A stretch of 64,000 nucleotides of DNA from Promethearchaeota archaeon (lineage in GTDB: Archaea; Asgardarchaeota; Lokiarchaeia; Sigynarchaeales; SOKP01), in the NCBI GenBank assembly GCA_013375495.1, contig JABXKC010000012.1, positions 1-64,000 of the forward strand. The letters are read 5' to 3'. A program made the position numbers and the translations under genes. Of the stretch, positions 21,602-33,916 are shown piece by piece. The notes under the pieces are model-generated. The model did not search any database, was not told the DNA's origin, and saw only the letters and a list, made by a program, of their open reading frames with translations. Position 1 is the first letter of the stretch, and every line of letters starts with the position of its first letter.

Positions 21602-23890
21602 TCATTTTTCTGTTGGTTGAAATATTCCCTTCTCAATCAAGTTAAAAATTGTCTGATAATCTTTAGGAGTACAGGCATTTTCTGGCATTAAATAAAGCGA
21701 ATAGAAATAGTTGAAATTATTTTCCTTCATAAAGGTTCGGGCTTTACCAATCATTTCTTTCTCAGACATATTTAACTTGACCTTAGGATTTTCTACAATT
21801 TTTAGGCGGTAAAGAAACGATGTATTCAAATGTTTATCGATTAATATTTCCATACTATGGAAGGGCTTTAAAATTCCCGTAAACTTGTCTATCTCTGCCC
21901 CGTAGTGTTTATAGATATCGTACGCTAAGTCTTCCATAATAAATTTAAAATTTGCAGAGGGATTTTCTTTCAATGTCACTATTAGTTTTAAATTAACAAA
22001 TTCAGTTTGCATGACTATTGAATCCTTGTATTCTATAGTCAATGTACGAGATTCCTTTGCGGCTTCGGAAATCGTCATTCCAAAGTTGCTGATGGCTTGC
22101 ATGAATCCTGAAATTAGGCTAGTATCTAGTTTTTGCCCACCAAACGATTCCGAAAAAACATCGATTCCTGATTTCGTGTCAATGACGATAATATTATTAA
22201 TATTTGAGATATCTGTACACTTACTCAAGAATTTCTCAAGTTTAGTTCTTTGATGGGAGTGTATCCTTTTATATGCTATATACGATATTAATGCCAGTGT
22301 AGCCGCCCCGAGTACAATTATAAAAATTATTAAAGGAAAGGGAAAATCAGGCGGTCGTGTAGGTGGTTGGTTAAGAGAAACCTCAAATATTTGAGATTGT
22401 ACACCCGCATCTGTTCCACTATCACTAAACCAGAACACATAGGCGTTATAAGTACCGTCAAGATCAGATAAACTAAGATTATACGAAAAGAGAGTTTCTG
22501 AAGGGTATGTTATTGTTTGATTCTGCACAGGATTGCCCGCGGAATTGAGTAATATAAAAGTATATGTTCCAGGCAAGAAGGATGTACCCCCAAGTAAGAA
22601 TTGTATCTCTTGACCTAATATATATTCAATTCTTTGAACATTTAATTCAAACTCAACGTTAGGAGAAAAAGCAATAATCTCCCAATCTGCTCCATCGGAT
22701 ATTGAATCGTTTAGAATAATAATTTTGTGACCTGTAGTATCTACAATGAATCCTGAAGTAATATTAACATCGTCTCTCAATACGCTTATATTCTCCCAGT
22801 TACTGGGATAATTAAATAACACGCTATAATTAGTGGGTTGTCTCACGATTGTCGGAGTTACGCTCCACTTATTTGTTGTGCCTTCTTGGACTACAACGGA
22901 ACCTGGAGAATCAAGATAATTAGAAAGAGTTACGGAATAACTAACGTTAAAAAGTAAACTTTCTGAAGCTTTGTTGTTTACGACAATTTGGTAATTGTCA
23001 CTATTAGGTAAGAAGTTGACTACAGTTTTTTCTAAATATCCCTTTCCTTCGCTTGTACTATTAGATATCGCATACAACTGATTATTAATATTGACAGTCA
23101 TATTAATTTCTTCTGGATAAACCGGAGTTTCTCCTTTCTGAATCAATTTATGTAGATATGTATAATTCTGTATTCCTGTGCTCCATTGATCGTTTTCATC
23201 GTAATACGACGCGTATAAACTCGGATCACTAGAATTGATGTTATTATAATACCAATAATATCTTAAATCATTAACATCATCAATATTAGAACCATTTAGT
23301 ACTATAAAGTAATTTCCCTCAGACAATAAAGTTGAATTGGGAAAAGTTTGTCTGTGCCATCCTTCAGTATCGGACATATTAATTTCCACTGTTGAGTAAA
23401 CAGTATTGTTTGGTTTATTATTTAACGCATCATACCCCCTTATTTGAACACTACTATTCGTTGGGTTAGTTTTGTATTTATATCCATATAGATCAACACC
23501 GTAAATAGTAGTAGGTTCAGTTAATTTGAGTTGTATCCCCAAACCTCTATCGTAATCGTTGTTTTGTTGATAATAAATTTCATCACGAATACCAGTGTAA
23601 TTTTGTTCCTCAATAATTATTAATTCTTTCCCAAATTTTATATCAGTAAAATTTAGCTCTACATCTTGAATAGACCACGAAGATGATGGTAATGTGATAT
23701 TAATAGAATTTACGTTTTGATCAGTTTCATTAAATTTGGAATATTCGTTCAAATCGAAAGTATTATTAAAGGTTAATGATGGTCCAACTCCATTCGCGTG
23801 AATAAAATCTATTTTTGAAAATAGGATTAAGAACATAAGTAGGGCAATCGATACCAACCCAATTCGATTTGACATTCTTGTCTTTTTCAT
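21602..23890 (-). CDS. Receptor-like membrane protein with longin-like cytoplasmic domain
   Basis: The 762-residue protein begins with a signal peptide (hydrophobic core VSIALLMFLILF, cut near Asn-Gly). A ~500-residue extracellular region follows, rich in N-x-S/T sequons and beta strands. One membrane helix (FPLIIFIIVLGAATLALISY) comes next, then a ~220-residue cytoplasmic part. That tail starts IIVIDTKSGIDVFSESF, then LISGFMQAISNFG, then a strand pair and an amphipathic helix, the order of longin domains. It ends with a helical tail. It is paralogous to 31673-33916. I infer a surface receptor coupling to GTPase or trafficking machinery; the ligand is unknown. Confidence 0.7.
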   Translation of the reverse strand: MKKTRMSNRIGLVSIALLMFLILFSKIDFIHANGVGPSLTFNNTFDLNEYSKFNETDQNVNSINITLPSSSWSIQDVELNFTDIKFGKELIIIEEQNYTGIRDEIYYQQNNDYDRGLGIQLKLTEPTTIYGVDLYGYKYKTNPTNSSVQIRGYDALNNKPNNTVYSTVEINMSDTEGWHRQTFPNSTLLSEGNYFIVLNGSNIDDVNDLRYYWYYNNINSSDPSLYASYYDENDQWSTGIQNYTYLHKLIQKGETPVYPEEINMTVNINNQLYAISNSTSEGKGYLEKTVVNFLPNSDNYQIVVNNKASESLLFNVSYSVTLSNYLDSPGSVVVQEGTTNKWSVTPTIVRQPTNYSVLFNYPSNWENISVLRDDVNITSGFIVDTTGHKIIILNDSISDGADWEIIAFSPNVEFELNVQRIEYILGQEIQFLLGGTSFLPGTYTFILLNSAGNPVQNQTITYPSETLFSYNLSLSDLDGTYNAYVFWFSDSGTDAGVQSQIFEVSLNQPPTRPPDFPFPLIIFIIVLGAATLALISYIAYKRIHSHQRTKLEKFLSKCTDISNINNIIVIDTKSGIDVFSESFGGQKLDTSLISGFMQAISNFGMTISEAAKESRTLTIEYKDSIVMQTEFVNLKLIVTLKENPSANFKFIMEDLAYDIYKHYGAEIDKFTGILKPFHSMEILIDKHLNTSFLYRLKIVENPKVKLNMSEKEMIGKARTFMKENNFNYFYSLYLMPENACTPKDYQTIFNLIEKGIFQPTEK

Positions 23891-25297: not shown

Positions 25298-26221
25298 TTA
25301 TGTTATAAAATAAAATGTTAATGAAAGACTGCCCAAGACGAAAATCACAAGTCCAACAATACGACCCATTGTTTTAGCAGGTAATTTTTGTATGTAAATA
25401 GATGCAATTATTCCAGTTGTTATCGAACCGATTGCAAGATAAAATGTAATTTCGATATTGAAATAGAATTCTCCTTTAATCGTAAAGCCAAATAGTTGAT
25501 AGAACATGAAAGTACAAAAGCTAATAATCATGCTTAAAATTAGAGCTGTTCCAACTCCTTTTTTGAGAGGATATCCGTAAATTATTACTAGTGCTAACAC
25601 AAAAACTAGACCAGAACTTGCTCCAAATAATCCTGAATTGACACCAACAAAAAGACCGAATCCAATCGCTAAAATGTAGTATAACCGTGAGCCCCGCGAT
25701 ATGAATCCTTGAATAGAATCTGCTTCCGAAACTAACAGCTCTTCGAATTTTTTATCTAACTCAACAAATTTCTCCTCACTTGTTGTTTTCTTCACAGTTT
25801 TGCGTGCAATATTTTGTGCCATTTTTTTTACCGATTCGTATGTGGGAAACCCCCTTTTAAGAAAGACAAGACCTAAGCACATGATGAATATTGGAACAAA
25901 CCACCCATAAATAGAACCTAGTGGGGTTATCATTAAAATATATACGCCAAAAAAAGTAGATACTACGCCAATGATGATGATTATGAAGATATCTAACCTT
26001 ATTTTGAATTGTTTTTTCCTAAGATAACCTATTGATACTGTGGCAGATGTAATCAAGTCGTTTAGTAAATTTACGGCAATAGCTAAAAACACATCTCCCG
26101 TGAATAAAAGTACAATAGGGAGCACAATTCCCAGCCCCGTTTGACCAATAAAGCTTATACTTATTCCAACGAGCGCACCGATTGAAATTAAGATAACAAT
26201 CTGATAGATTTCCAATCCCAT
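25298..26221 (-). CDS. TauE/SafE family sulfite/sulfonate exporter
   Basis: The 307-residue protein has about eight membrane helices in two halves with Gly-rich stretches (FIGQTGLGIVLPIVLLF, GLFVGVNSGLFGASSG), typical of TauE/SafE. A cytoplasmic loop of about 45 residues (EEKFVELDKKFEELL) separates the halves. This family exports sulfite, sulfoacetate or related anions. It ends 22 bp from the end of the alkylsulfatase gene (convergent) and is followed on the same strand by the sulfatase, 59 bp upstream, which fits removal of sulfate or sulfite from ester hydrolysis. Confidence 0.85.
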   Translation of the reverse strand: MGLEIYQIVILISIGALVGISISFIGQTGLGIVLPIVLLFTGDVFLAIAVNLLNDLITSATVSIGYLRKKQFKIRLDIFIIIIIGVVSTFFGVYILMITPLGSIYGWFVPIFIMCLGLVFLKRGFPTYESVKKMAQNIARKTVKKTTSEEKFVELDKKFEELLVSEADSIQGFISRGSRLYYILAIGFGLFVGVNSGLFGASSGLVFVLALVIIYGYPLKKGVGTALILSMIISFCTFMFYQLFGFTIKGEFYFNIEITFYLAIGSITTGIIASIYIQKLPAKTMGRIVGLVIFVLGSLSLTFYFIT

Positions 26222-26280
26222 AATATGTTCACGCTATTAGTCTTTGCTAATAATTATTATTTAATTTGGTCTTATTTAAA

Positions 26281-27804
26281 TTAGGTAGCGGCAATTCTTT
26301 TTGGAAGTTTCGTTTGAGCTTTCAAATTTTCCTGTAAAAGTTTATTTACTAGATTGAATCTTATATCTCGGAAATTAATGTCATTCCATAAATTATTTAA
26401 TTCTTGGGGATCATTTTTACGATCGTAGATATCGCCAAAGTTATCTACTCCTTCGTATATTGTTAATTTAAAATCTTCAGTAATCAAATGCCTTAATCGG
26501 GAATCTAGAGGCCCAACCTCTTCATCGTTTTCGATTAAAACACAGTCTCTAATCTTTTTATAAGGATCTTCTAAAAGTTGGGAGATGTCATATCCTTGCA
26601 TACCTGGAGGGTGATGGCGTTCCTTTATATTTAATAAGTTTAGAATTGTCTTTGGAAGATCGATGGTGCTTACCAATGCATTCGATACGCTAGGACTAGT
26701 TAATCCTGGCACCTTCCAAATTAGGGGAATATTTAAAACTCCGTTAAAGGGGCAAGGTCCTTTAAAAAGAAGTCCATGATCGCCCATTAGGTCTCCATGA
26801 TCACTTGTAAAAATAATCATTGTGTTTTCTGAATAACCTAGTTTTTCTAAAGATGCTAAAATTTCACCGATACTATAATCAACGTAACTAATTGCGGCGT
26901 ATGTTAAAGCCGTGAGTTTTCGGACTTCTTCCTCTGTTGATTCTCTTATAAAAGCTCTTTTAAATGGAGGATTCTTTAAATGATTCCCTAAATATTGGTG
27001 ATTATATAAATTCTTTATATCTTGAAAACTTGAAGGGAGTTCTATATCTTCTGGTTTATACATATTTTGAAATCTTTTTGGTGGGTAAAGAGGATAATGA
27101 GGATCTGGAAAAGAACAGTGTAAATAAAACGGTTTTTCACTATATTTTCCTTGTCTATATCTCTCAAGGAAAGATATCGTTCGTTCCTTCACATAAGTAG
27201 TATTATAGAGATCACCTGGAATCTCGTCACAAAACAAGCTAAAAAGTTTATCGTAGTTTTGAACTCTTTTTTTCATTTCCTCAGCGATCTTAGGTGCTCT
27301 CTCTTCCAACCATTCTGTATAATGCCCAGCACACACCGTACCGTTTCCAGAAACTAGTTCCACTTCGTTATAGCCGTAATAAGGGAGAGGGAAATTCTTA
27401 CCTACAGGATCGTTTTTTCCCTTGTCAACAGCCCAACTAATTAAACTCTCAGAGGATTTAGTTCTATGTTTAAATGGACCTAACCAAAACTGATGGTGTA
27501 CTTTCCCAACTGCAGCAGTATACCACCCTCTTTCTCGCAGGACTTTTGTAATTGTAGGAAGGTTTTCGTTTAAATTTATGCCATTACTTCTTACTCCATG
27601 TGCGTTTGGATATAAACCTGTAAGTAAGGTTGCTCTATTCGGCATGCAAATAGGATTAGTGCAATAATAGTTAGAAAAACGCACGCTCTCTTTTGCTAGA
27701 CTATCAATGTTAGGTGTTTTTACATGAGGATTTCCTGCACACCCTAAATGATCCGCCCGCTGAGCGTCTGTAATAATAAATAATACATTCATTTTATCTT
27801 TCAT
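26281..27804 (-). CDS. Cys-type (formylglycine) sulfatase
   Basis: The 507-residue protein belongs to the type I sulfatase (alkaline phosphatase superfamily) family. IITDAQRADHLG gives the metal-binding Asp pair. CMPNRATLLTG (C-x-P-x-R) contains the Cys that would become formylglycine. FTSDHGDLMGDHG supplies further metal ligands. An anaerobe would need an anSME radical-SAM maturase, which is not in this window. No signal peptide is present, so the enzyme is cytoplasmic. The exporter follows it on the same strand. It could also be a choline-sulfatase-like or phosphonate hydrolase-like member. Confidence 0.85.
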   Translation of the reverse strand: MKDKMNVLFIITDAQRADHLGCAGNPHVKTPNIDSLAKESVRFSNYYCTNPICMPNRATLLTGLYPNAHGVRSNGINLNENLPTITKVLRERGWYTAAVGKVHHQFWLGPFKHRTKSSESLISWAVDKGKNDPVGKNFPLPYYGYNEVELVSGNGTVCAGHYTEWLEERAPKIAEEMKKRVQNYDKLFSLFCDEIPGDLYNTTYVKERTISFLERYRQGKYSEKPFYLHCSFPDPHYPLYPPKRFQNMYKPEDIELPSSFQDIKNLYNHQYLGNHLKNPPFKRAFIRESTEEEVRKLTALTYAAISYVDYSIGEILASLEKLGYSENTMIIFTSDHGDLMGDHGLLFKGPCPFNGVLNIPLIWKVPGLTSPSVSNALVSTIDLPKTILNLLNIKERHHPPGMQGYDISQLLEDPYKKIRDCVLIENDEEVGPLDSRLRHLITEDFKLTIYEGVDNFGDIYDRKNDPQELNNLWNDINFRDIRFNLVNKLLQENLKAQTKLPKRIAAT

Positions 27805-27927
27805 AATTATTAAAAAGAATTATTCCTTATTTAACGGTTAAAATTATCGTCTAATATCTGATTTCATTATTGATGTTAGAAAATATAAAGTTTCATGTTA
27901 AATCAATACTACTACTTAAATCTTATA

Positions 27928-27940
27928 GAAAATTTTATAA
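27928..27940 (+). promoter_or_regulatory. BRE/TATA promoter of the leu leader
   Basis: gaaaa (27928-27932, BRE-like) followed by tttataa (27934-27940) predicts a transcription start about 25 bp downstream, near 27962-27966. That would give a 5' leader of about 28 nt with an SD-like aaaaggg (27974-27980) before the ATG at 27992. The element lies inside an imperfect palindrome, CTTATA ... TATAAG (27922-27941), which could also bind a regulator. Confidence 0.5.
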
Positions 27941-27991
27941 GTGTCCTTTTATTTCCATTTTAATAGATAATTGAAAAGGGATTCATAAGTA

Positions 27992-28093
27992 ATGCTGTTT
28001 CAAAAAACAACTAAAACTGAATCTAGGAATTCATTTCTGAAATTTAATCCCTTTTTATTGTTATTATTAAATCTTCTCTTATTATTACTGTAA
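27992..28093 (+). CDS. Leucine-rich leader peptide of the leu operon
   Basis: A 33-codon ORF (ATG 27992, TAA 28091-28093) is preceded by SD-like aaaaggg. Its last 13 residues read FLLLLLNLLLLLL, so 11 of the final 12 codons are Leu (seven TTA, one each of TTG, CTT, CTC and CTG). It lies 88 bp before leuA. This matches the design of leuL in enterobacterial attenuators, where ribosome stalling at Leu codons reports leucine starvation. A purely structural reading (a small membrane peptide) is possible but does not explain the position next to leuA. Not known to me from Archaea. Confidence 0.6.
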   Translation: MLFQKTTKTESRNSFLKFNPFLLLLLNLLLLLL

Positions 28094-28095
28094 TT

Positions 28096-28145
28096 ACCCC
28101 TCTCTTCCGTTTTATGGAAAGGGAATTCTTTTTCTTTAGAGGGGT
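28096..28145 (+). promoter_or_regulatory. Alternative RNA stems and T-rich tract downstream of the leader stop
   Basis: Two structures share the left arm. ACCCCTCT (28096-28103) pairs perfectly with AGAGGGGT (28138-28145). Alternatively, TTCC (28105-28108) pairs with GGAA (28116-28119), with supporting CCC/GGG or wobble pairs around it. A T-rich tract (28129-28137, tttttcttt with one C) lies between. The left arm begins 3 nt after the leader stop, so a terminating ribosome would mask it while a ribosome stalled in the Leu run would not. A TATA-like tatataaat (28149-28158) follows and could be a second, leaderless promoter for leuA. Confidence 0.45.
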
Positions 28146-28181
28146 TGTGTATATAAATTAATTAAAGATAGGTAAGGAAAA

Positions 28182-29801
28182 ATGGAAAAAAACAACAATG
28201 TAAGTGTTTCGCAAATAATGGAGGAAATAAGAGATACGCTAATTCTTCCAGATAAAGCATATTTTTTCGATACGACGCTCCGCGACGGTGAACAAACCCC
28301 GGGCATAAGTTTTACTCACAAAGAGAAATTGTCAATCGCGCAAGCACTAAATGAGATGAAAATGGATGTAATTGAAGCAGGATTTCCAGTTACTTCTATA
28401 GGAGACTTTGAAGCATGTAGAGATATAGCTAAATTGGGTTTAAATTCTGAAGTAATGGGATTAGCAAGAATGGCGAAACTTGATATTGATAGAGTTATCG
28501 AAGCGGACATGGATAGCATTCACCTTTTTATTGCAACCTCGGATATCCATCTTAAGTCAAAACTTCAGATGAGCCGAGAGGAAGTAATAGAACAAATTCA
28601 GAAATATATTTCTTATGCAAAAGAGCATTACTCTACGATTTTATTTTCAGCCGAAGATGCAACTCGATCCGATCTAAGTTTCTTGATTAGAGCGAATCTT
28701 ACCGCAATTGAAAGTGGAGCAACAAGAATAAACATTCCTGACACTGTAGGCACAATTTCACCAAAAGCGTATGGGTATATGGTAAAAAATGTATACAAAG
28801 CGATTCCAAAAAAAATTAGAATAGCAGTACACTGCCATAACGATTTTGGCTTAGCTGTTGCAAACACCATCGCGGGATTCGAAAATGGCGCCTCTGAAGC
28901 ACAAACAACTATAATGGGATTAGGCGAACGAGCAGGTAACGCCTCTTTCGAGGAAACAGCAATGTCACTCTATGCACTATACCAACTACCAATGAATATC
29001 ATAACCAAAAAGATTTTTCCTACTGCTAAACTTATTGAGAGTTATTGTGGTGGAAAGGTTAAAATAGGACGACTTCAACCGCTAATCGGGCAAAATGCAT
29101 TTACTCACGAAGCGGGCATCCATGCTCACGCGATGATAAAAAATGCGCGAACTTACGAGCCAATTACTCCACAGTTAATTGGAATAAGCAGATCAGACGA
29201 TGTTATGGATATTATTAAGCAATCCATTAAATTTGGGAAACACAGCGGAGGTCACGCACTAAAAGCAAAATTAGGAGACTTAGGGATTAATACCGACGAA
29301 CAACAATTCGGCAAAATTATGACCCATATTAAAGAATTTGGCGACAAAGGACACGAAGTTTCGGAAGAAGATTTTTTAGCAATCGTTAAGGATGTAATGG
29401 GAGAAATTCCCGAAGAAGAACAATTCGTAATACTTGAAGAACTTACCGTTCTTACGGGTTCTATAACACCTACTTCAACTGTGCGCTTGAAAATAAGAAA
29501 CGGCGATTTTATAGAAAAAGTTGCTTCCTCGGTAGGAGTAGGTCCTGTCGATGCTTCAGTAAATGCCATAGTTAAATGTTTTAAACCTATGAGCAATATT
29601 AAGCTATTAAATTTCCAAATTGACGCCATCACGGGAGGAACTGAATCATTAGGACATGTAACAATTGAAATCTTAGATATCGAAAGTAAAATAATTGTTA
29701 AAACTAGCGCCACTCACGAAGATATAGTAATGTGCTCCGTTTTAGCTCTTATAAAAGGCTTAAACTTAATAGTCAAGAAAAAAAGTTCCGAAATGGAGTA
29801 A
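28182..29801 (+). CDS. leuA: 2-isopropylmalate synthase (LeuA/CimA family)
   Basis: The 539-residue protein catalyses condensation of acetyl-CoA with 2-oxoisovalerate, the first committed step of leucine synthesis. DTTLRDGEQTPG (residues 30-41) and HCHNDFG, with a later HEAGIHAHA, form the catalytic and metal sites. The C-terminal ~150 residues are the LeuA regulatory (leucine-binding) domain. Citramalate synthase is a close relative, but co-transcription with leuCD and the Leu-rich leader favour LeuA. SD ggtaagga precedes the ATG. leuB is not in the window. Confidence 0.88.
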   Translation: MEKNNNVSVSQIMEEIRDTLILPDKAYFFDTTLRDGEQTPGISFTHKEKLSIAQALNEMKMDVIEAGFPVTSIGDFEACRDIAKLGLNSEVMGLARMAKLDIDRVIEADMDSIHLFIATSDIHLKSKLQMSREEVIEQIQKYISYAKEHYSTILFSAEDATRSDLSFLIRANLTAIESGATRINIPDTVGTISPKAYGYMVKNVYKAIPKKIRIAVHCHNDFGLAVANTIAGFENGASEAQTTIMGLGERAGNASFEETAMSLYALYQLPMNIITKKIFPTAKLIESYCGGKVKIGRLQPLIGQNAFTHEAGIHAHAMIKNARTYEPITPQLIGISRSDDVMDIIKQSIKFGKHSGGHALKAKLGDLGINTDEQQFGKIMTHIKEFGDKGHEVSEEDFLAIVKDVMGEIPEEEQFVILEELTVLTGSITPTSTVRLKIRNGDFIEKVASSVGVGPVDASVNAIVKCFKPMSNIKLLNFQIDAITGGTESLGHVTIEILDIESKIIVKTSATHEDIVMCSVLALIKGLNLIVKKKSSEME

Positions 29802-29832
29802 AAGTATTCAAAGAAGTTAAATGATCTAAATT

Positions 29833-31107
29833 ATGGGTTTAACAATCACAGAGAAAATTCTTAGAGAACACTGTCAGAATAAAAGTGCTACTGCCGGTGA
29901 TTTTATTATGGTAGATATTGATAAGTGTTTAGCAAATGACATCACCGCCCCTATTGCCATTGAAGTATTTAATGAAGTTATAACTGGAAAGAATGTAGAT
30001 GTTTTTGATCCTAAAAAAATAATTTTAATCCCAGATCATTTTACTCCAAATAAAGATATAGCTTCTGCTGCTCAGAGTAAAATTCTTAGGGATTTTGCTA
30101 TGAAATACAACATTAATAACTATTTTGAAGTCGGTAGGGGCGGCATTGAGCATTGTCTCATACCTGAAAAAGGACTAGTGTCTCCTGGAGATGTCTTTAT
30201 TGGAGCGGATTCACATACATGCACATATGGCGCACTTGGAGCTTTTGCAACTGGTGTTGGATCTACAGATTTAGGTGTTGCGATGGTATCAGGAAAATGT
30301 TGGCTAAAAATTCCAGAGTCAATTAAATTCATATTTTCGGGTAAGTTAAGAGAATGGGTTTCCGGAAAAGATTTGATTTTGTATACAATAGGAAAGATTG
30401 GTGTAGACGGAGCTTCATATAAAGCTATGGAATTAAGCGGAGAAGTTATTGGTAAATTATCCATGGCTAATAGGTTCACAATTTGCAACATGGTAATAGA
30501 AGCGGGAGCTAAAAATGGAATCATTACTCCAGACAAGGTGACAAATTCCTACTTAGAATCAAGTGGCTTTACTTTAGGAAAGAGTCATCAAAGTGATAAA
30601 GATGCAGAATATATCGACACAGTAGAAATCAATTGCGATAAGATTGAACCTCAAGTAGCTTTACCCCATTCACCCGCAAATGTTAAACCAATAACAGAAG
30701 TTAACGATATGAACATAGAAATAGATCAAGTAGTTATCGGGTCATGTACGAATGGTCGAATTGAAGATTTAAGAATAACAGCAAAGATTTTAAAAAATAA
30801 AAAAATAAAGCCTAATTTAAGATGTATTATTATACCAGGGACTCAGGAAACGTATCTTAGAGCTATAAAAGAGGGTTTAATTGAAATATTAGTTAATGCT
30901 GGAGCCATTATCTCTACACCGACTTGTGGTCCTTGTTTAGGAGGTCATATGGGAATTTTAGGAGAAGGGGAAAAAGTTTTATCTACAACAAACAGGAATT
31001 TTAAAGGAAGAATGGGGCATATTTCAAGTGAAATATATTTAACAAGCCCCGCGGTGGCAGCATTTTCTGCAATTAAGGGACGCATTACATCTCCTCAATT
31101 TAATTAA
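29833..31107 (+). CDS. leuC: 3-isopropylmalate dehydratase large subunit
   Basis: The 424-residue aconitase-family subunit carries the [4Fe-4S] ligands in GSCTNGR and TPTCGPCLGGH. IPDHFTPNK and GADSHTCTYGALG form the active-site region. Together with the small subunit it isomerises 2- to 3-isopropylmalate. It starts 32 bp after leuA and ends 10 bp before leuD. Archaeal LeuC and homoaconitase large subunits are hard to separate by sequence; operon position and the leader favour leucine synthesis. Confidence 0.9.
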   Translation: MGLTITEKILREHCQNKSATAGDFIMVDIDKCLANDITAPIAIEVFNEVITGKNVDVFDPKKIILIPDHFTPNKDIASAAQSKILRDFAMKYNINNYFEVGRGGIEHCLIPEKGLVSPGDVFIGADSHTCTYGALGAFATGVGSTDLGVAMVSGKCWLKIPESIKFIFSGKLREWVSGKDLILYTIGKIGVDGASYKAMELSGEVIGKLSMANRFTICNMVIEAGAKNGIITPDKVTNSYLESSGFTLGKSHQSDKDAEYIDTVEINCDKIEPQVALPHSPANVKPITEVNDMNIEIDQVVIGSCTNGRIEDLRITAKILKNKKIKPNLRCIIIPGTQETYLRAIKEGLIEILVNAGAIISTPTCGPCLGGHMGILGEGEKVLSTTNRNFKGRMGHISSEIYLTSPAVAAFSAIKGRITSPQFN

Positions 31108-31116
31108 TTAAAAAAA

Positions 31117-31626
31117 TTGAATAAAATGAAAATGAATGGAAAAGTAATCAAATATCACCAGAAAAATATCGATACCGATCTGATTATTCCGGCAAGGTAT
31201 TTAGTGAATGCTGAACCAAAATTTTTAGCAAGTCATTGTATGGAGGATTTAGATATAGATTTTGTAAAGAAAGCTAATGATAACAATTATTCTATCTTAG
31301 TTGCGGGTTCGAATTTTGGGTGTGGATCAAGTAGGGAACAAGCTCCTTTAGCTCTTAAAGCTTGTGGTATAAAATGTATTATCGCACCATCATTTGCTAG
31401 GATATTTTTTAGAAATGCAATAAACATAGGATTACAAATAGTAGAATTATCTAATATTGATGACATAAACACTGGAGATCTACTAGAGATTAATTTAAAA
31501 GCAGGTGAAATATACAATACAACCTCATTACACAATTACGAAGTTAAAAAACAACCAGTCTTCCTCCAGGAAATAATTTCCGACGGAGGTTTAGTCAACT
31601 TTGCGAAAAAGAGATTGATTAGTTAA
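31117..31626 (+). CDS. leuD: 3-isopropylmalate dehydratase small subunit
   Basis: The 169-residue swivel-domain subunit has DTDLIIPARYL near the N-terminus and GSNFGCGSSREQAPLALKA, the substrate-binding signature of LeuD. Length is typical of archaeal LeuD. A second Met five residues in (31126 or so) is an alternative start. It is the last gene of the leu operon; the next gene is on the opposite strand. Confidence 0.92.
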   Translation: MNKMKMNGKVIKYHQKNIDTDLIIPARYLVNAEPKFLASHCMEDLDIDFVKKANDNNYSILVAGSNFGCGSSREQAPLALKACGIKCIIAPSFARIFFRNAINIGLQIVELSNIDDINTGDLLEINLKAGEIYNTTSLHNYEVKKQPVFLQEIISDGGLVNFAKKRLIS

Positions 31627-31672: not shown

Positions 31673-33916
31673 TTATAGAATAAACGGATTAAAAATTCTT
31701 TTTATTATCAGTGAATATAAAGCCTCTATTTCCTTCGAATCAAAAGTAATCTCTCTAATTAATTGGGTTACATAAAAATAATCTAACCTGTTTTTTTTCA
31801 TTATAGTTATCGCTTTGTTTATTAAGGATTTTTCTGTTGGAGCAATTTTCATCTTACCCGTTCCAGTTAACTTAAGAGGATATAAGAAAGTTGTGCCCAT
31901 ATGAGTTCTCAATAAACTTTCAATACCTTCAAATGGTTGAAGATTACCCTTGAATTCTTTCAAATAAATTCCATATTTCTCCTCAATCTCTAATGATAGA
32001 TCGTCAATTATTTCGTAAAATTGTGGAGAAGGCAAATCTTTCATAATAAATATGAGTCTGAAATGCTTAAAGTCTGACATTAAGATTTTTGAGTTTTGAT
32101 ATTCAAGTTTAATTGTTTGTGAATGTTCCTCTGAGGTTGATATATCTAACCCAAAAGATCGAATCGCCTCCAAGAATCCTGAAACGAGCGTTGAATTGAA
32201 TTTTTTCTCTGTAAAAGCCTGATCATATATGTTTAGAGAGGACTTCTTTTCGATGATAATCACATAATTCAAATTCAGGATATCCATAAATTTGTTCATA
32301 ATTTTTTCTTTTGCAGCAATTTTCTTTTTCTTATTTCTTTTAGCAAGCACAACTGATGATACCGTTACCGCAGAACTTAATCCCACTATAATTACGATAC
32401 CAATTATCATTGCCCAGTCAATTACTTCTGGTAAAATTACTGTGAAAACTTGAGTTACTATGCCCGCATCAGTGCCGTTTAACCAATAAACAAACACTTT
32501 GTATGAACCATCCAATGCGTTTGAAGGAAATGTGTAAGCAAAACTGTTTGATTCGGGAGGTATTAATTTTGTTGTTATATTAATTTGTGTTTCATAAGTA
32601 TCAGTTAAAACGAAAGTATAATTCCCCTCCAAAACAGGGGTGGCGATGAAAAATTTTAACTCTTGACCAGGATAAAACTCTGTCCTACTTACATCGAGAT
32701 TAAAATCTTTTTTTGATGAACTGGCGGTTATTTCCCATGAATCGCCTTCGGAAATAAAACTATTAGAGATGTAGATATAATTTTCAACATGATTAACATC
32801 GACTAAACCAGTGATATTAACTTCATTTCTTAATAGACTTACATCAAACCATTTACTGGGAAAATTAAATTTCACAGAATAATTGTTAAACTCTGGGGCG
32901 AGTATAGGAGTAACGCTCCAGTAGTTATCATGGGTTTCTGCTATCTCTATTGTTCCTGGAGAAGTGAAGTGATTTTCTAATTTGAGATCGTAACTAACAT
33001 TAAACATCAATTCAATCGTTCTATTATGATAAACCGGGAAAACCACATCAGTTTGATTCAGAGGTATATTAACATTAGATATTTGCACTTTTCCACTTCC
33101 TGGTGAACTGTTATTTATAGTGTAAATAGTATCATCGACTTTTATCGTCATATTGATTGCTTCTGGATCAAATGATTGATCGGTTCTTTGTATCAATTTA
33201 TGTGAAAAAGGTTCACCCATAACATCATCGAGCCAAACACCAGAAATGTATTTTGAGGTATAGAGGTTTGTATGAATTGAACCAGACGCATTATAAGCCC
33301 AGTTGTGATCGGAATTATCATATGATTTATATTCTGAACCATTAACTACTAAATAATAGTAGCCTTTCGAAAGAGAGATTGGTTCTGGAAATTTTTGAAC
33401 GTACCAACCGGGAGTAGTTGAAATATTAATAGGGCCGGGGTTCCCATATATGGTGGCATTTGGTCTATGATTTACCTGGTTGTACCCGTTAATTTGTACA
33501 TAAACAGAACTATATGTAGTCCCAAATAAATACCCAAAAATCTGAACTCCTATGAGGGTAATATCTTCTGTGATGTTAAGTTGAACACCATAACCCCTCA
33601 CACCTTTATATACTGATTTAAAGCTTTTGTCTGCTTCTTCAATTGATTTTACTTCTTCTCCTAATTTAATATCGGTAATATTCAGTTCTAAATTTGTAAC
33701 ATTCCATTTCGAACCAGGGAGACTTATTTTTATGTGATTAGTATTAAATTGTGTTGTTGAAAAGTTCGAGAATTCTTGAAACCTATAATTAACATCAGCA
33801 GTTAAAGAATCCCCATTTGATTGGGCGTAAACTATATTGGGTTGATTACTACACGCAATTAATATGCTTAAAATTAGTAGATTTATTGAAATAAATGTTT
33901 TAATTTTACTTCTCAT
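31673..33916 (-). CDS. Receptor-like membrane protein with longin-like cytoplasmic domain (paralogue)
   Basis: The 747-residue protein copies the plan of 21602-23890. It has a signal peptide, a sequon-rich ectodomain with many beta strands, and one membrane helix (WAMIIGIVIIVGLSSAVTVS). The cytoplasmic longin-like tail starts YVIIIEKKSSLNIYDQAF, then LVSGFLEAIRSFGLD. Shared ectodomain stretches such as GWYVQKFP/GWHRQTFP and KLIQR/KLIQK show common descent. The pair is separated by about 8 kb carrying the sulfatase and leu genes. Ligand and partner unknown. Confidence 0.7.
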   Translation of the reverse strand: MRSKIKTFISINLLILSILIACSNQPNIVYAQSNGDSLTADVNYRFQEFSNFSTTQFNTNHIKISLPGSKWNVTNLELNITDIKLGEEVKSIEEADKSFKSVYKGVRGYGVQLNITEDITLIGVQIFGYLFGTTYSSVYVQINGYNQVNHRPNATIYGNPGPINISTTPGWYVQKFPEPISLSKGYYYLVVNGSEYKSYDNSDHNWAYNASGSIHTNLYTSKYISGVWLDDVMGEPFSHKLIQRTDQSFDPEAINMTIKVDDTIYTINNSSPGSGKVQISNVNIPLNQTDVVFPVYHNRTIELMFNVSYDLKLENHFTSPGTIEIAETHDNYWSVTPILAPEFNNYSVKFNFPSKWFDVSLLRNEVNITGLVDVNHVENYIYISNSFISEGDSWEITASSSKKDFNLDVSRTEFYPGQELKFFIATPVLEGNYTFVLTDTYETQINITTKLIPPESNSFAYTFPSNALDGSYKVFVYWLNGTDAGIVTQVFTVILPEVIDWAMIIGIVIIVGLSSAVTVSSVVLAKRNKKKKIAAKEKIMNKFMDILNLNYVIIIEKKSSLNIYDQAFTEKKFNSTLVSGFLEAIRSFGLDISTSEEHSQTIKLEYQNSKILMSDFKHFRLIFIMKDLPSPQFYEIIDDLSLEIEEKYGIYLKEFKGNLQPFEGIESLLRTHMGTTFLYPLKLTGTGKMKIAPTEKSLINKAITIMKKNRLDYFYVTQLIREITFDSKEIEALYSLIIKRIFNPFIL

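Follow-up and report, generated by a model that had tools for sequence, protein, structure and literature searches.

A conserved leucine-rich leader ORF upstream of leuACD in Lokiarchaeia and its possible role in ribosome-mediated attenuation

In enterobacteria, the leuL, hisL and trpL leaders are short ORFs, with many cognate codons, that precede a biosynthetic operon, and in trpL the RNA segment that is masked by the terminating ribosome starts a few nucleotides past the stop codon. When a stop codon occupies the ribosomal A site, the ribosome covers roughly 8 to 11 nt past that stop. Amino-acid operons are also governed from the 5' leader by T-box leaders and riboswitches. Asgard archaea, Lokiarchaea among them, are an archaeal lineage close to eukaryotes; FttA (aCPSF1) is, to our knowledge, universal in archaea. 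Runs of cognate codons in the 5' leader have been described for leader peptides of Actinobacteria (PMC1262725), and a study of Firmicute leader peptides discusses the repeated emergence of such leaders; its authors stated in 2010 that, to their knowledge and ermC aside, their own Firmicute case was the first to be shown outside Proteobacteria and Actinobacteria (PMC2965389). In archaea, termination is described as depending on U-stretches or on FttA/aCPSF1 (PMC8116511). FttA is reported to bind the nascent RNA exiting the polymerase, its terminator taking in some 36 nt of nascent RNA, parts of which are U-rich, and mutual exclusion of ribosome and FttA has been proposed (PMC11616081). In Saccharolobus, recruitment of aCPSF1 to early elongation complexes has been described (PMC8448881).

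Here we analysed a window of 64,000 nt from a Lokiarchaeial contig. Our results suggest, with a probability of about 0.7, that a short ORF in this window is a leucine-sensing leader peptide controlling leuACD via the position of the ribosome. The putative leader ORF, recognised from the sequence, the ORF list and the comparison of leuA loci, starts with ATG, has 33 codons and lies at 27992..28093 on the plus strand, like all elements of the leu region given here unless stated. Its peptide is MLFQKTTKTESRNSFLKFNPFLLLLLNLLLLLL (C-terminal end …PFLLLLLNLLLLLL), it ends FLLLLLNLLLLLL-stop, and 11 of its 12 terminal codons encode Leu. An SD-like aaaaggg (27974..27980), which looks similar in close relatives by eye, precedes the ORF, and 88 nt separate its stop from the leuA start at 28182; these three features had been proposed in an earlier note on this DNA, and their coordinates all check. 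Downstream, leuA (28182..29801, 2-isopropylmalate synthase; Pfam HMGL-like and LeuA_dimer, NCBIfam NF002085 above cut-off), leuC (29833..31107, 3-isopropylmalate dehydratase large subunit; TIGR02083 above cut-off) and leuD (31117..31626, small subunit of the same enzyme; TIGR02087 above cut-off) form a single run from 28182 to 31626. The likely SD of leuA is AGGT (28170..28173), and tAGGt is seen by eye before leuA in many relatives.

The promoter that the earlier note had assigned to the leader stands in part. A TATA-like box, TTTATAA (27934..27940), could serve the leader transcript, and its position relative to the leader stop is common to most of the window group. Among the 34 sequences with sufficient upstream DNA (L014, with only 130 nt upstream, was left out), TATA-like heptamers occur 160-141 nt upstream of the leader-stop end in 17 and 140-121 nt upstream in 8, with a further cluster at 220-201 nt in 10. 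Since these heptamers are scattered, and absent from the scanned 340 nt in 7 of the 34, the promoter claim is backed only partly. Note that a second TATA-like stretch, tatataaat (28150-28158), lies between the post-stop hairpin described below and leuA; TGTATAAAA or a similar sequence is present in most of the window group, and it is a possible candidate for a second leuA promoter. As to the surroundings, the leu region is flanked by two similar-looking large proteins encoded on the minus strand (21602-23890 and 31673-33916; 762 and 747 aa), the second of which has no match in Pfam, and a sulfatase-family gene beside a TauE/SafE-type exporter gene (25298-27804, minus strand) lies just upstream of the leader.

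The leader is conserved across most leuA loci of the class. The nearest relatives of the window are metagenome genomes of Candidatus Lokiarchaeota/Lokiarchaeia, with LeuA 79-95% identical (nine loci). LeuA was found in 45 of 83 genomes of the class that were searched, and 44 leuA upstream regions were read, the 45th (G019), whose gene lies at a contig end, being left out. A short ORF with a Leu-rich end precedes leuA in 34 of these 44 further regions, the window providing the 35th case. These 34 leaders have 6-11 Leu among their last 12 codons (L041 is the weakest) and stop 89-138 nt before leuA. Taking all 35 together, Leu occupies codons -1 to -6 from the stop in 31, 32, 34, 34, 30 and 25 leaders, respectively; all six Leu codons are used in the runs, codon -5 alone being TTA in 12, CTC in 11, CTT in 6 and CTA in 1, and the stop is TAA in 26, TAG in 5 and TGA in 4. 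The peptide outside the Leu run drifts, while the run and the stop are kept with synonymous codon changes, a pattern that looks like selection on leucine decoding. The earlier note had named Leu codons with changing third positions in relatives as the expected sign of function, and had argued from the place of the TTA run before leuA that chance was a poor explanation; the comparison across the class bears out both points. In support of this, among 21,119 distinct short ORFs from both strands of the 986 kb of DNA examined, only 32 have at least 8 Leu in their last 12 codons, and 26 of these 32 are leuA leaders.

The Leu leader is absent in 10 of the 44 leuA regions of the class, in which LeuA is at most 63% identical to the query, and it was not seen in the 16 genomes read outside the class (L296 included). 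Asgard leuA genes that lack it often have another recurrent micro-ORF before or overlapping the gene (L045, L049, L051, L052, L057, L062, L064, L066-L069 and L296). The peptides include MRDSVLKVR, LDRVLCYS, MAWRNCVLNCEN, MVWRNSFLI and MQRDGVRC, each followed by the stop codon, and several of the ORFs contain GTTCTC; possibly, they are another leader or an RNA motif. In L053, L057, L058 and L061-L064, moreover, inspection by eye showed no usual start codon in the stretch from the last in-frame stop to the conserved LeuA N-terminus, and a micro-ORF overlaps leuA in a different frame; translation there may use an unusual start or a frameshift.

Directly after the leader stop lies a hairpin (28096..28145), supported by folding against shuffles, a consensus fold and the co-variation of its arms across relatives. 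In the window its first paired base is the third nucleotide after the stop, and in all 35 sequences the 5' arm begins at nt 1-6 after the stop, with the hairpin ending at nt 49-59. The 70 nt that follow the stop fold better than dinucleotide shuffles (mean z -3.16 over 35 sequences, 29 of them below -1.5; -3.54 over 35 sequences in a second run), whereas a 70-nt control stretch upstream does not (mean z -0.14 over 33 sequences, L014 excluded, with 2 below -1.5). Note that the L040 and L043 segments begin one base early in the set giving -3.16 and in the native and shuffled arm-swap sets presented below. The six sequences above -1.5 are L010, L011, L012, L014, L016 and L017, and five of these belong to the window's group of nine; the window segment alone scores -2.27 and -2.63 in the two runs, and a 136-nt fold of the window that includes the leader codons gives no signal (z -0.24). 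Masking the 11 nt after the stop raises the mean MFE of the 35 sequences from -19.3 to -8.6.

The arms of the hairpin also fit each other better than they fit the arms of other leaders. Native arms pair at -19.9 kcal/mol, exchanging arms among dissimilar sequences gives about -12.1 kcal/mol, and the native pair is better than every swap in 18 of the 35. Because the arms had been chosen from native folds, the swap test was repeated on shuffled sequences: the native-minus-swapped difference is -7.4 for the real set, against a mean of -3.1 (sd 0.5, minimum -4.2) for 40 shuffled sets. Changes on both sides of a pair were counted, alongside the swap test, in two subgroups of five sequences that were picked for aligning well: they affect 8 of 24 pairs in one, and 3 of 20 in the other, where the covariation term is unfavourable (+2.36). 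Within the window group of nine, no native pair beats all swaps (for the window, 6 of 26 swaps are equally good), both sides have changed in 3 of 17 pairs, and the covariation term is only -0.19. Thus, the nine sequences of the window group show a modest hairpin signal and weak co-variation. Compensatory change, which the earlier note had expected in a functional stem, is found across the class by arm swaps and subgroups, and only slightly among the close relatives of the window. The consensus fold of the 22 sequences outside the window group contained no pairs, since an alignment by sequence only does not register the arms; a model derived from it was likewise pairless and was not used.

Where the earlier note proposed a switch, the relatives keep one hairpin. 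The 8-bp pairing that it had pointed out (28096-28103 with 28138-28145) is perfect in the window fold and recurs in the consensus of nine sequences as an outer helix. The window fold places two inner hairpins within it (about 28105-28119 and about 28120-28137), and the T-rich tract ttctttttcttt (28126..28137), recognised from the sequence, lies inside the hairpin. Since the fold of the window group is branched in this way, the nearer hairpin and the distant pairing coexist in one structure and are not exclusive stems, as the note had supposed. Nor did its leuL-style switch with a T-rich terminator hold. When the first 12 nt after the stop are removed, the remainder up to leuA folds at chance level on average (mean z -0.32 over 35 sequences, single values to -2.5), which indicates that no terminator/antiterminator pair is conserved. 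The largest T count in 12 nt is matched by at least 5% of shuffles in all 35 sequences, no consistent U-run after the hairpin was seen by eye in the relatives, and a conserved U-tract hidden by the hairpin, which we also considered, is not above shuffles. An intrinsic terminator of the enterobacterial type, that is, a G+C hairpin and then a U-tract before the first gene, was not found. Shuffles fold as well as the final 110 nt of the leader (mean z -0.23, 34 sequences), and for this reason a pairing of the leader SD (aaaagggatt) with an aatcccttttt within the ORF, of which L008 and L009 have a look-alike, was discarded as a family feature.

Comparable leaders precede tryptophan genes. TrpE is found in 20 of the 83 genomes of the class, with a clear Trp leader in 11 of the 20 and three further candidates. 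In five genomes trpE is the first gene, and the leader there ends TW[FV]WxWRWH[AV]-stop (for example, …TWFWAWRWHA). In the other 15, DNA farther upstream was read, and in six of them the first trp gene is preceded by a Trp leader, ending TWFWFWHWHA, FRWQWLWRA (twice), FRWHWSWRA or GWQMPWRY (twice, with two Trp only). No Trp leader was seen in G010, G079 and G080, and in G022, G082 and G083 the trp upstream sequence stops at the contig end. Where the Trp leader is clear (11 genomes), the Leu leader is present as well in 10; the remaining genome, G037, has no LeuA match. The Trp stem carries the stop codon in its loop and its arms vary on both sides (by eye GCACG/CGTGC, GCGCG/CGCGC and GCGTT/AACGC); it is weak against shuffles (mean z -0.73, 11 leaders), and no second recurring pairing was found by eye. 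The three candidates, read upstream of the first trp gene (L187, L188 and L291), come from genomes that do not have the Leu leader: G014 (…SNNSWTIWAWRL, with a TTG start), G013 (…SLEWPWCWRN) and G012 (…SFFWSWSWHY, in a frame that lacks a usual start codon).

Histidine leaders have the same layout. HisI-domain matches occur in 44 genomes, and 6 of the 30 loci read have a His leader, ending …HHWLHH, …YLHHWLHHE, …SHHLHHK, …SHFHHHQHHE, …AHHWHYHL or …NHIMHHFPTHK and stopping 83-87 nt before a hisIE-type gene. A hairpin follows the stop (mean z -3.3, L201 reaching only -1.4), with arms such as TTCCGATGAA/TTCATCGGAA and CCCAATGA/TCATTGGG. The His leader is absent from seven HisI-domain loci of the window's kind (L209-L215), and none of 10 loci has a leader directly before hisG, two of these hisG operons (G008 and G009) carrying it before hisIE. 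In five of the six (L202-L206) the 3' half of the leader has a second hairpin, immediately followed by a G-run and the hisIE start, with arms AACTGAA/TTCAGTT, or AAACTAAA/TTTAGTTT in L203.

For ilvB, an ORF rich in Ile, Val and Leu lies near the gene in 3 of 9 loci (3 of the 7 above the family cut-off; L153, L155 and L157, in G079, G080 and G022), ending …SILLVVIIVVVRVILLL, …LLVVLVLVGILVIA and …LVVLDVIGILVIA. Perhaps these are Ile/Val/Leu leader peptides; the case is weaker, as peptides of this composition are common and one ORF overruns the nearest possible ilvB start. No convincing cognate leader was found before pheA (30 loci read of 56 matched genomes), ilvD (30 loci), leuB (30 loci) or ilvC (8 of 21 matches read). 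Not counted as leaders were a scattered-His ORF upstream of one hisI (L221), an isolated Phe/Tyr-rich ORF upstream of one pheA (L124), an Ile-rich ORF ending …FYIIIIQIAKNI with no hairpin before three ilvD genes (L241, L248 and L251), and an isolated hydrophobic ORF upstream of one leuB (L267).

The leader thus shares with leader-peptide attenuation a putative ORF of cognate codons before the operon, an amino acid that is kept while its codons change synonymously, a helix arm inside the footprint of the terminating ribosome, and cognate leaders before several operons. The geometry suggests how it would act. With Leu-tRNA plentiful, the ribosome would reach the stop, its front covering the 5' arm and blocking the hairpin; a footprint of 8-11 nt would remove 3-11 bp of helix. 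With Leu-tRNA scarce, it would stall earlier in the Leu run, and the 5' arm would be free to form the hairpin. Since a terminating ribosome masks the arm and one stalled earlier frees it, the hairpin is expected in the starved state. Stalled ribosome and 50-nt hairpin would together take up most of the RNA between leader and leuA, a gap that would lie open after normal termination of the leader. The hairpin may therefore shield the RNA from FttA termination, or affect translation or decay. We favour, tentatively and at somewhat short of even odds, that hairpin and stalled ribosome hide the leader RNA from FttA/aCPSF1, so that the polymerase reads into leuACD, transcription otherwise ending early. 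That Leu, Trp, His and probably Ile/Val leaders form a general Lokiarchaeal system, gating a hairpin at the stop that decides FttA access with no terminator structure, is a conjecture that we hold to be just about as likely to fail as to stand, with a slight lean towards failing.

The serious rival to FttA termination keeps the same Leu leader and ribosome-gated hairpin and makes the read-out translational, or one of mRNA stability, with no premature termination. It would account for the lack of any conserved terminator-like element, for the stop-to-leuA gap (88-138 nt) and SD-like tAGGt that are kept, and for the second hairpin at the hisIE start. However, the conserved hairpin does not include the leuA SD, nor does any conserved structure that could sequester it remain once the 5' arm is taken away, and we consider this read-out unlikely.

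Much less probable are the explanations in which the ORF does not sense leucine. The inverted repeat could act as DNA, as a transcription-factor operator or promoter element, the Leu-run ORF being unrelated; compensation in the window group is slight, and because the second TATA-like stretch lies 3' of the repeat in that group, leuA could have its own promoter. Unlike a fixed operator, though, the arms differ between sublineages yet stay complementary, the repeat keeps its place at the leader stop in all 35 sequences, Leu codons vary synonymously, and the His leaders share the layout with unrelated sequence, all of which makes an operator very improbable. The Leu-rich tail and conserved position would also suit a functional small hydrophobic membrane peptide that lies before leuA by coincidence. 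Such a peptide would hardly drift elsewhere or have its tail often broken by polar residues, the hairpin geometry suits decoding control, and the Trp- and His-rich counterparts are not membrane-like; we give it even less credit than the operator. As for a chance TTA run in AT-rich DNA, six unrelated short ORFs in the 986 kb do reach 8 of 12 Leu, but recurrence at the same place in 34 of 44 leuA regions, synonymous variation and co-varying hairpin arms leave chance as the least credible of all. The idea of a Leu attenuator that the earlier note put forward is thus upheld in part, by the leader at most leuA loci of the class, its hairpin and the Trp and His counterparts, and has lost its leuL-style exclusive stems and terminator.

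If a leucine-sensing leader is the right reading, having leaders for three or four amino acids would suggest that Asgard archaea use translation-coupled control, and the conservation of these leaders would imply a close coupling of transcription and translation there. The Lokiarchaeal leaders would offer a concrete system for how the archaeal ribosome and FttA compete, with a bearing on the gene control that was possible in the archaeal ancestor of eukaryotes.

How does this leader compare with the known ones? In contrast to T-box leaders and riboswitches, the proposed sensing is by codons, and an Rfam search of 27700-28300 found neither; its sole match with E up to 5 was to a microRNA model (E 3.7) and fell far short of that model's cut-off. 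The Actinobacterial and Firmicute leaders use bacterial termination signals, unlike the Lokiarchaeal one, for which FttA/aCPSF1 and its promoter-proximal termination would be a plausible read-out machine (PMC8448881, PMC11616081); the parts of these two papers drawn on here contain no leader peptide or amino-acid sensing. No archaeal leader-peptide attenuator appeared in the titles and abstract openings among the matches listed for the open-access literature, a scope that leaves aside subscription papers and preprints. As occurs with trpL, the ribosome-masked arm starts a few nucleotides after the stop, and trpL segment 2:3 has its counterpart in the hairpin predicted under starvation; the Trp and His leaders are similar to trpL and hisL in where their codons are placed. 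What sets the Lokiarchaeal leader apart from leuL, hisL and trpL is its archaeal host and its one conserved hairpin, with neither an exclusive antiterminator/terminator pair nor a U-tract terminator. Ribosome-mediated attenuation in an archaeon is the best reading of the Leu leader, in which a stalling ribosome would sense the amino acid as in bacteria; the mode would be like bacterial ribosome-mediated attenuation, without the terminator of two structures by which the enterobacterial type is defined.
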